Source: Planctomycetota bacterium (GTDB lineage Bacteria; Planctomycetota; Phycisphaerae; Phycisphaerales; SM1A02). Taken from it: DNA of 64,000 bases. Below the pieces are notes generated by a model. That model was not told the DNA's origin, made no database searches, and saw only the letters and a list, made by a program, of their open reading frames with translations. This document shows, in pieces, positions 60,753-63,414 of this stretch (position 1 is its first letter; the number at the start of each line of letters is the position of its first letter). The DNA lies in NCBI GenBank assembly GCA_014381555.1, contig JACNLO010000052.1:1-64000 (forward strand), in the 5' to 3' direction. Made by a program: the position numbers and the translations under genes.

Positions 60753-60795
60753 GTGGAGTGTTCTGAATTTTTGGTATCATTAAGCACGATACAGT

Positions 60796-60831
60796 GACGA
60801 ACGTGTTGTTCGTCGAAAACAACTGTTTTTT
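60796..60831 (+). terminator. Stem-loop and T-run between the polyprenyl synthase gene and the tRNA-Glu-like element
   Basis: GACGAAC-GTGTT-GTTCGTC (60796-60814) is followed after 11 nt by T7 (60826-60832 region). The gap between stem and T-run is longer than ideal; a weaker AAACA/TGTTT stem sits directly at the T-run. It probably ends the upstream operon, with moderate support. Confidence 0.5.
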
Positions 60832-60832
60832 T

Positions 60833-60902
60833 GTCCCGTTCGTCTAGTGGTCTAGGACGCCAGATTCTTCTGGTTACAGGGGTTCGAATCCTCTATGGGA
60901 TG
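60833..60902 (+). pseudogene. tRNA-Glu-like sequence with shortened anticodon loop
   Basis: The acceptor (GTCCCGT/ATGGGAT, two G-U pairs), D-arm GTCTAGTGGTCTAGGAC and T-arm AGGGG-TTCGAAT-CCTCT are those of tRNA-Glu, discriminator G. The anticodon arm is only 14 nt, CCAGATTCTTCTGG, instead of 17, so a five-bp stem leaves a four-base loop (TTCT) with no room for a normal seven-base loop. All other parts have normal length, giving 70 nt rather than 73. This is either a degenerate tRNA-Glu, a tRNA-like leader for the downstream RNase Z-family gene, or a sequence error. Confidence 0.7.
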
Positions 60903-60911
60903 TTCTTTTTT

Positions 60912-60938
60912 TGTGTTTGTTTGAAACAGACACATTTT
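60912..60938 (+). promoter_or_regulatory. Hairpin with T4 between the tRNA-like element and the RNase Z ribosome site
   Basis: TGTGTTTGT and ACAGACACA pair (nine bp, one G-U) around TTGAA, followed by TTTT and then GGAG for the downstream ATG (60950). It is a weak intrinsic terminator or attenuator sitting directly before the ribosome site, so some transcripts could stop here and others read into the gene. Confidence 0.5.
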
Positions 60939-60949
60939 GGAGTTTTATT

Positions 60950-61870
60950 ATGTTGCCACGAAGACCCCCGCGATCAGGACAGGTTGGGTTTTTATATCTT
61001 CCACCCTACAGGGTTCAGGGCATAAGCATTGCTGGCGAACAAACAGCTGTTCATATTCCTGAACTAGATGTGGCTTTTGATGTTGGGCTTTGTCCAAGGC
61101 CGGTTTTGTCTGCCCCGTTCATCGCCCTTACACATGGACACATGGATCATGTTGCGGGGTTACCGTACTACTTTAGTCAAAGAATGTTTCAAAAAATGGG
61201 TGTTGGAACCTGTGTTTGCCATAGCGAAATTGCTGGTGCTGTGCAATCAATGATGGCTGGGTGGGTTGATCTGGAACAACAATTCACTCCGCACAACATT
61301 GTTTCGCTAGACCCCGATGGCGAGATCACCATTAAACCAAACATTGTTTTAAAGGGAATAGAGGCAAGCCACACGGTACCTGCTCTTTCTTATGTTGTGA
61401 TGGAACACAGGAAAAAGTTACTTGAAAAATATAATGGTCTTCCACAAGAAGAGTTAAGAAGCCTAAAGATTGGTGGGACAGAAATTACTCACACTTTAAA
61501 AATTCCACTTGTTGCGTGCACAGGTGACACCGAAATGGGCAACCACTTGTTTCGTCCAGAGTTTACAAACGCTCCAATCGTTATAACTGAGTGTACTTTT
61601 TTTGAGTCTGAACATAAAACCAGAGCCACCGTAGGGAAACATTTACATATTGATAATATTGCAGATTTGTTGCAGGTGTGGAAGGCGGAGCACGTTGTAA
61701 TCACTCACACAAGTCGCAGAACGGGTCTTGATATTATTAAGAGGGCTATTGAAGAACGAATTGGTTGTGATGACTCACACCGAATACACTTGCTAATGGA
61801 CCACCACGCAAACAGAATGCGTTATGAAAAACAACAGGAAGAAGCGGGAGATTTTGCGGAAAATGGTTGA
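60950..61870 (+). CDS. Metallo-beta-lactamase-fold hydrolase of the ribonuclease Z family
   Basis: 306 residues from ATG 60950, with GGAG 7 nt upstream; an earlier in-frame start (60911) would lie in the hairpin. Zinc-site motif THGHMDHVAG, then HTVPALSYVV, GDTEMG (bridging Asp) and THTSRR (final His) are in the order of RNase Z/ElaC enzymes. These cut tRNA precursors 3' of the discriminator base where CCA is not encoded, as for all tRNAs seen here. The typical exosite arm is not clearly recognisable, so another MBL activity cannot be excluded. A tRNA-like element precedes it by 47 nt. Confidence 0.78.
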   Translation: MLPRRPPRSGQVGFLYLPPYRVQGISIAGEQTAVHIPELDVAFDVGLCPRPVLSAPFIALTHGHMDHVAGLPYYFSQRMFQKMGVGTCVCHSEIAGAVQSMMAGWVDLEQQFTPHNIVSLDPDGEITIKPNIVLKGIEASHTVPALSYVVMEHRKKLLEKYNGLPQEELRSLKIGGTEITHTLKIPLVACTGDTEMGNHLFRPEFTNAPIVITECTFFESEHKTRATVGKHLHIDNIADLLQVWKAEHVVITHTSRRTGLDIIKRAIEERIGCDDSHRIHLLMDHHANRMRYEKQQEEAGDFAENG

Positions 61871-62007
61871 CGGACAGGGAAATAAAGCGTAGATTTAGCG
61901 TTCCAATATATTGCATGGATGCTACACGCCTTTTTTGGGATGGATGAGAAACCTGATTTTGTGGTTGACTCGTCGTTGGGCCTATTAGTTACGTGGTAAA
62001 AAAATAT

Positions 62008-63414
62008 ATGAGTAAAGATCAAATAGACAGACAGCAATTAAAGGTTGACCTTTTGGGTCGGCTTCATCTTGACCACGCGACAATGTGTAGAAGGTGGTTT
62101 GATGACATTGTTGTGCTTGGTATTGTTGGTGGAACGTTGTTAATTCAAATTCAAGAACCAGTTCAATTAAAATATTTGCAGCGCTGTTGCACCCAACAGT
62201 TTGCCGAAGCCGCACAATCAATTACTGGGCATCTTCTTGGGGTGCGCTTTGTTGGCGAAGAGGGAATAACACCAAGCACGGGGAACGTGGCTGGTTCGGG
62301 AAGATTCGGAAAATCTGGTGTTGTTTCGGGCGACAACCCAAGGGGCACTTCGGTACTTTCTTCTTTTGATATTGAAGAAGATTTGCTAATTAGCCCCGAC
62401 TACAATTTTGAAAATTTTGTTGTTGGTCCCGGAAACAGGCTAGCGCATGCTGCTGCTACTGCTGTCTCTACTAAGCCGGGACAAGCATACAACCCCCTGT
62501 TTATTCATGGTGGGGTTGGGTTGGGCAAAACACACCTTCTACAATCCATTTGTCAAACGGCTATTAGAAAACATGCGTCGATGAGAATTTATTATGTTTC
62601 ATGTAATGGTTTTATGACGCAGTTTCTTGAGGGAGTTCAAGAGGGGAAAATGTCCTCGTTTAGAAACAAGTTTCGGGCGTTTGACATGCTTGTTATTGAT
62701 GATATTCACGATCTTTCGAAACGAGACCAAACACAAGAAGAATTTTTCCACACTTTTAATACCTTGTTTCAATCTGGAAAACAACTGGTGTTAAGCTCTG
62801 ATGCTCCGCCAAGTGAAATCCCATATCTAGAAGAGCGTTTAATAAGCAGGTTTAGTTGTGGTCTTGTTGCGAGCATTGATCCGCCTGGTTTTGAAACGCG
62901 GGTAGCAATAATTAAAAAGAAGGCAGTAATGAGAAACATCGATATTCCAGACGATGTTACAACCTATGTTGCTTCACACTTGGATTCCAATATTCGGTTG
63001 CTTGAGGGAGCCATTACAACCCTACAAAGCGTAGCCATGTTAGATGGTGAGGATATTTCTCTAGAACTTGCCAAGCGAACAATTGGAAATGAAAACAAAT
63101 CAGATGTGCCAACGAACATTTCCATTCAAAACATCCTTGACTCAGTTACTGTTTTTTATAACATCAAGCTCTCTGACCTTCTTTCTAAACGCAGACACAA
63201 ATCTATAACTGTTCCGAGGCAGGTTGGAATGTGGTTGTCACGAAAACATACTCGATTTAGTCTAGAAGAAATTGGAGGATATTTTGGTGGGCGAGATCAC
63301 ACAACCGTGATGCATGCAATAAAAACCATTAACAAAAAAATTGAAGATGACGAAATTTTCCAAAGAGAAATAAGCCTCTTGGGGGAACAATTATCGGACA
63401 AGCTTGGTGTCTAG
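62008..63414 (+). CDS. dnaA: Chromosomal replication initiator DnaA
   Basis: 468 residues from ATG 62008 (a GTG five codons upstream is possible). Domain I (about 1-80) and a linker precede the AAA+ domain with Walker A in HGGVGLGKTHLL, Walker B in MLVIDDIHDL, sensor 1 in VLSSDAPP and the Arg finger in LISRFSCGL. Domain IV ends in the DnaA signature GGRDHTTVMHAIKTI. It binds DnaA boxes and opens the origin. dnaN does not follow; instead an intergenic region with DnaA boxes and convergent trpD come next. Confidence 0.96.
   Translation: MSKDQIDRQQLKVDLLGRLHLDHATMCRRWFDDIVVLGIVGGTLLIQIQEPVQLKYLQRCCTQQFAEAAQSITGHLLGVRFVGEEGITPSTGNVAGSGRFGKSGVVSGDNPRGTSVLSSFDIEEDLLISPDYNFENFVVGPGNRLAHAAATAVSTKPGQAYNPLFIHGGVGLGKTHLLQSICQTAIRKHASMRIYYVSCNGFMTQFLEGVQEGKMSSFRNKFRAFDMLVIDDIHDLSKRDQTQEEFFHTFNTLFQSGKQLVLSSDAPPSEIPYLEERLISRFSCGLVASIDPPGFETRVAIIKKKAVMRNIDIPDDVTTYVASHLDSNIRLLEGAITTLQSVAMLDGEDISLELAKRTIGNENKSDVPTNISIQNILDSVTVFYNIKLSDLLSKRRHKSITVPRQVGMWLSRKHTRFSLEEIGGYFGGRDHTTVMHAIKTINKKIEDDEIFQREISLLGEQLSDKLGV

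Follow-up and report, generated by a model that had tools for sequence, protein, structure and literature searches.

The gene for RNase Z (rnz) of a planctomycete of the order Phycisphaerales is preceded, in the 64-kb stretch of DNA analysed here (the window), by a tRNA-like element of 70 nucleotides (nt) that derives from tRNA-Glu and has lost its anticodon. From a comparison of related genomes it is almost certain that the leader of the RNase Z mRNA contains, in this element, a conserved mimic of a tRNA. The reading that we favour, to which we give a probability of about 0.6, is that RNase Z regulates itself through this mimic, which would stem from a captured tRNA-Glu(CUC) gene and would be cleaved by the enzyme, the leader acting as a sensor of tRNA-processing capacity.

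Coordinates are positions in the window, whose genome is called G000, and the genus to which it belongs comprises 13 metagenome-assembled genomes of marine Phycisphaerales, 12 of which hold the rnz locus; genus counts refer to those 12. ARAGORN reports at 60832-60903 a 'tRNA-???' with a broken anticodon, and Rfam RF00005 covers 60833-60902 at full length with 45.7 bits (gathering score 29) and an E-value of 4.9e-8. Taken in isolation, 60833-60902 is predicted to fold as a cloverleaf with -24.5 kcal/mol. The features of the locus are the following.

60775-60780, forward strand: -10-like box TATCAT in the presumed promoter of rnz (TATNAT in 9 genomes)
60833-60902, forward strand: tRNA-like element derived from tRNA-Glu, 70 nt (ARAGORN, Rfam; once per genome, before rnz, at 12/12 genus loci)
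60833-60839, forward strand: 5' strand of the acceptor stem, GTCCCGT, partner of 60895-60901, with compensatory changes across the genus
60842-60858, forward strand: D-arm, with GG in its loop in 12/12 genomes
60860-60873, forward strand: degenerate anticodon arm CCAGATTCTTCTGG, with a 4-nt loop and no usable anticodon; a hairpin in every member
60878-60894, forward strand: T-arm AGGGG TTCGAAT CCTCT, with 98% of cells paired and T-loop TTCRANT in 12/12
60895-60901, forward strand: 3' strand of the acceptor stem, ATGGGAT (pair counts across the genus)
60902, forward strand: discriminator G, with the RNase Z cut predicted at 60902/60903 and UU next in 12/12 genomes
60912-60934, forward strand: hairpin beside the ribosome-binding site (from folding), with an order-wide homologue, diverged in the window genome
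60939-60942, forward strand: Shine-Dalgarno (SD) sequence GGAG (from the leader sequence)
60950-61870, forward strand: rnz, RNase Z gene, 306 aa (RNase ZS1 7xgt_A, E 2e-38; TIGR02651 partial)

The element has the acceptor, D and T arms and the elbow of a tRNA, as judged from Rfam and the pair counts. A functional tRNA-Glu would carry a stem of 5 base pairs (bp), a 7-nt loop and a Glu anticodon, and this combination is found neither in the window nor in any of the 12 genus members: the arm CCAGATTCTTCTGG has 14 nt (a 5-bp stem and a 4-nt loop) instead of the normal 17 nt. From the discriminator G60902 to the rnz ATG at 60950 there is a gap of 47 nt, in which the hairpin at 60912-60934 is followed by TTTT and then by GGAG. 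ARAGORN and Rfam thus bear out an earlier sequence-only reading of the window, which had described a tRNA-Glu-like element with a 14-nt anticodon arm and other arms of normal length; the distance of 47 nt to an RNase Z-family gene and the hairpin with four T's before the ribosome site, which it had also reported, are indeed present within 60902-60950.

A search of related genomes for the same element upstream of this gene, as that reading had advised, found it 37-47 nt before rnz in 12/12 members with the locus, while the assembly of the one remaining member (G006), where no such element occurs, contains neither rnz nor its neighbour dnaA. A covariance model built from the 12 elements (R1) finds one element per genome, the next-best match scoring ~48 bits in nearly all (in G000 this is tRNA-Glu(TTC)), and no second match above ~49 bits was seen in the genus. 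In the acceptor and T stems 92% of pairs are kept across the 12 genomes and five pairs have changed on both sides, whereas in a control with the partners slid by 1-3 columns pairing is only 37-61%. In the acceptor, two pairs show a compensatory change from C-G to U-A and the end pair one from G-C to A-U, as can be seen in strand pairs such as GTCCCGT/ATGGGAT, GTTCTGT/GTAGAGC and GTTCCGT/TCGGAAC. The elbow (D-loop GG and T-loop TTCRANT) and the UU after the discriminator are found in 12/12, so that, together with the 92% pairing, the element offers what an RNase Z substrate has: an acceptor stem stacked on a T-arm, an unpaired discriminator and a residue other than C after it. The third arm, on the other hand, is CCTTTTGG (8 nt) at its shortest and a 12-bp hairpin of ~35 nt at its longest, always a hairpin and never with a 5-bp stem and 7-nt anticodon loop (0/12). 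The conserved property is the absence of any such anticodon arm, not that it is three nt short; the shortened loop of the sequence-only reading therefore holds for the window genome, with its 4-nt loop, but is not conserved, given arms of 8 to ~35 nt in the relatives.

The mean identity of the acceptor and T core is 0.72, compared with 0.38 at the four-fold sites of rnz (chance 0.27), and in the 60 nt upstream of the element it is 0.53, compared with 0.51 in shuffled sequence. The synonymous sites of rnz and the upstream flank appear to be near saturation while the core has been kept, and hence neutral decay is no explanation: a neutral pseudogene would change at the neutral rate and without compensatory changes. 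The variants of the element also track the clades of the rnz tree (G011/G005/G002, G009/G001 and G007/G010). As in the cis-element of an autoregulatory ribonuclease leader, the element is conserved and tied to the gene of the enzyme, with one per genome, always before rnz.

The product of rnz aligns with RNase ZS1 (7xgt) with an E-value of 2e-38 over residues 14-280, including HGHMDH (the HxHxDH motif) and the later H/D/H metal ligands, and more weakly with the tRNase Z of T. maritima. It therefore has the motif, the further metal ligands and the near-full-length likeness to a solved structure that are expected of an RNase Z. Its match to TIGR02651 is partial (56.5 bits) and falls under the curated NCBIfam RNase Z cut-offs, which makes it a divergent RNase Z of the ZS1-like kind. 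No other RNase Z turned up in the genome, where the further matches to the metallo-beta-lactamase fold are PhnP-, GloB- or ComEC-like or belong to no named family. None of the tRNA genes recovered from the window genome encodes CCA, for which reason an RNase Z-type 3' endonuclease is needed, and the rnz product, as the sole candidate, is presumably this tRNA 3' endonuclease. An intact tRNA-Glu(TTC), that is, the UUC species whose presence elsewhere in the genome the sequence-only reading had wanted checked, lies at C81:38572-38645; the window genome yielded no tRNA-Glu(CTC) gene. In another genus member, G010 (L042), the predicted RNase Z N-terminus MLPRRGGGGGGG is unlike that of its relatives, possibly through an assembly problem.

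The element probably stems from a tRNA-Glu(CUC) that sister genera carry next to rnz. R1 has a match on the strand opposite to rnz, 144-320 bp upstream of the gene, in 15 genomes of the family that belong to other genera, and at 12/19 inspected sister loci ARAGORN identifies an intact tRNA-Glu(CTC), head-to-head with rnz (L078-L082, L085-L088, L091, L092 and L094). These genes score 50-67 bits with R1, compared with ~48 for the TTC gene of the window genome, and the element is 80-90% identical to the tRNA-Glu(CTC) of relatives. The two are homologous in sequence and share their neighbourhood upstream of rnz, but the tRNA of the sister genera is intact and on the strand opposite to rnz, while the element of the genus is on the same strand and lacks the anticodon. 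An ordinary tRNA-Glu at this place in relatives, which would have counted against the proposal of the sequence-only reading, was found nowhere in the genus; those of other genera are intact and on the opposite strand. In the other genera no element in rnz orientation was found in 17 other-genus loci or in 19 loci, nor was any rnz-adjacent one in that orientation found with E <= 1e-9 across 151 family genomes. A class-wide search gave tRNA-sized matches outside the genus, and the three checked by ARAGORN are tRNA-Glu(CTC). The simplest history is that a tRNA-Glu gene was captured in rnz orientation, presumably through an inversion, and lost its decoding role.

In the genus pps, the element, rnz and dnaA are consecutive on one strand (in G003 dnaA would lie beyond the contig), with pps directly upstream in 12/12 genomes. 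The distance from the end of the -10-like box to the element is 46-52 nt in 9 genomes, where the box reads TATNAT (mostly TTTGGTATNAT), and 9 nt in G011, G005 and G002, where it reads TANNNT and the transcript would begin with the mimic. A promoter scan found no classical match to a -35 box, and the promoter is therefore suggestive only. Between the -10-like box and the element of the window (60781-60832) there is a hairpin GACGAAC/GTTCGTC with a run of seven T's, in a region that is not conserved in relatives. The element with the T run that follows it was also considered as an intrinsic terminator and rejected, the T run not being conserved. In the genus, and at almost every locus inspected in the rest of the family, rnz is followed on the same strand by dnaA (60950-63414).

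The cut of RNase Z falls immediately 3' of the discriminator; the enzyme depends on the acceptor stem and makes contact with the T-arm, and it dispenses with the D-arm and the anticodon arm; the archaeal enzymes tested also require a mature 5' end (PMC7479834). The tRNA elbow is recognised by a flexible arm of the enzyme (PMC4810234). The acceptor, T-arm and elbow preserved here match these needs, as the sequence-only reading had maintained in stating that the half kept is the half that RNase Z recognises, and because the preserved parts are those required we take the element to be a substrate mimic in the rnz leader. The predicted cut site, 60902/60903, follows from the known specificity of the enzyme (PMC7479834).

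In the mechanism that we propose, a tRNA-Glu gene, most likely CUC, would have been captured between the rnz promoter and rnz in the ancestor of the genus and would have lost its anticodon function, and all that selection would now retain is the helix of acceptor and T-arm together with the D-loop/T-loop elbow. Once transcribed, the element would take the fold of a pre-tRNA, with the ribosome-binding region of rnz as its 3' trailer, and its mature 5' end would be made by RNase P or, in one clade, given by the transcription start itself. RNase Z would bind the element and cut 3' of the discriminator, which would detach the leader from the coding part, and the cut rnz mRNA would carry a 5'-phosphate some 37-47 nt ahead of the AUG. 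With free RNase Z in excess, rnz mRNA would be cut and would decay faster; with abundant pre-tRNA, the enzyme would be titrated and rnz mRNA would stay whole.

The steps of this mechanism differ in strength. The element is probably recognised by RNase Z, and cleavage of the leader seems likely, though less firmly so, while for negative feedback on rnz, the likeliest outcome by analogy with RNase III cutting its own mRNA, the chances are about even. It can also be the case that processing activates the gene, since the mRNA could be protected by the hairpin that cutting would place at its 5' end. Binding and cutting of the mimic as feedback, taken together, is held with somewhat better than even odds. 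The sequence-only reading had proposed a tRNA mimic through which RNase Z cuts its own leader and controls its own expression. Its mimic stands, in view of its conservation, the part that is kept, the sole RNase Z candidate and the intact tRNA-Glu elsewhere; co-transcription with rnz, binding, cleavage, and the feedback with its sign are what we infer.

Several observations weigh against this mechanism. The element is found in this genus only. The acceptor ends are imperfect, with pair 1-72 unpaired in 3/12, 2-71 in 2/12 and 7-66 in 3/12. When the leader with 40 coding nt is folded unconstrained, a long-range fold beats the cloverleaf in 6/7 members tested, by 3.5-14 kcal/mol (the two are equal in G011), in a model that ignores tRNA tertiary contacts and co-transcriptional folding. 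Finally, plain folding predicts that cutting barely alters the accessibility of the SD, the acceptor figures in this calculation reflecting the long-range alternative fold. An SD-accessibility switch upon cleavage was accordingly discarded, and an effect on expression would need mRNA stability or binding.

It is possible, if rather unlikely, that the element serves as punctuation, an RNase P/RNase Z site at which a read-through transcript of pps and rnz is split into two mRNAs in the manner of mitochondrial tRNAs, with no sensing of RNase Z. The constant position of pps, directly upstream and on the same strand, would fit, and acceptor and T-arm are what both enzymes need. However, rnz seems to own a promoter, given the -10-like box that follows pps and precedes the element (by 9 nt in one clade); two genera, g16 and g49 (L083 and L095), have the pps-rnz order of the genus with neither element nor tRNA there; and the genome has no copy of the element other than the one preceding the RNase Z gene.

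Unlikely as well is binding without cutting, in which RNase Z or another elbow-binding protein would sit on the mimic and block ribosome loading or recruit decay, comparable to threonyl-tRNA synthetase (ThrRS) on the thrS operator. The elbow features in 12/12, the imperfect acceptor ends of several members and an SD just 26-37 nt past the element are consistent with it, but the 3' strand, the discriminator and the UU trailer, which matter for cutting, have been kept too. We consider it quite improbable that the element, once excised, is a trans-acting, stable small RNA, for instance a decoy for tRNA enzymes, its position before rnz reflecting the chance place of the tRNA gene: release would give a tRNA-sized RNA and sister genera do carry tRNA-Glu(CTC) at this place, but the third arm is conserved in neither sequence nor length, 12/12 genomes retain the link to rnz and the orientation is that of rnz, not of the sister tRNA. 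A functionless decayed tRNA-Glu gene, the simpler alternative of the sequence-only reading, has clear descent (80-90% identity to the tRNA-Glu(CTC) of relatives) and loss of the anticodon in its favour but is, like an assembly error, hardly credible for an element present in 12 separately assembled genomes, with compensatory changes and a core conserved where synonymous sites and upstream flank are not.

A second element in the leaders is a GNRA-type hairpin abutting the SD that occurs in 24 rnz leaders outside the genus and, within it, in G011, G005 and G002, and whose outer CC pairs with the GG of GGAG; the region concerned is 60903-60949 in the window and, in other genera, the leaders L043-L050 and L078-L095. 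Of the cells in an alignment of 26 sequences, 94% are paired, and 38 changes affect both sides of a pair, a number reached in 0/500 shuffles, slid versions giving <=12. For a model of this hairpin (R2), the rnz leader is the best match in 11/31 genomes, including G022 and G005, which were outside the alignment. The hairpin, which has diverged in the window genome, predates the mimic, is seemingly rnz-specific and constitutes a candidate for a separate cis-regulatory RNA. With such hairpins order-wide, rnz seems to be leader-controlled in much of the order.

If the proposed feedback is true, the clade whose transcript starts with the mimic would need no RNase P step, and leader control of rnz might extend to the replication initiator dnaA if both are co-transcribed. 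Moreover, the record of 12 genomes amounts to a natural deletion experiment in which the anticodon arm has been freed and acceptor, T-arm and elbow kept, which maps what the reader of this RNA needs. It would also follow that a tRNA gene can become a cis-regulatory element of a neighbouring gene. We know of no account of how RNase Z capacity is matched to pre-tRNA supply, and a literature search, in which subscription journals were thinly covered, found no precedent for RNase Z autoregulation or tRNA-like RNase Z leaders.

The mascRNA of MALAT1 and organellar t-elements are tRNA-like structures in longer transcripts that are cut by RNase P and RNase Z. They resemble the rnz element as tRNA-like processing signals inside a longer transcript, but they are eukaryotic or organellar and are not known in the leader of an RNase Z gene itself. 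In the thrS operator of Escherichia coli the mRNA leader mimics a tRNA and is bound by ThrRS for feedback. There, as proposed here, the leader of an enzyme's mRNA imitates the tRNA on which the enzyme acts, but thrS copies the anticodon arm that ThrRS reads, while the rnz element keeps the acceptor/T/elbow half and discards the anticodon arm. E. coli RNase III cleaves a stem-loop in its own mRNA (rnc), which leads to autoregulation (PMC4419217). This is a ribonuclease mRNA that bears the substrate of its own enzyme and is cut as feedback, as we propose for rnz; the substrate in rnc is a double-stranded stem, whereas in the rnz leader it would be a tRNA mimic, with a predicted cleavage directly after its discriminator.
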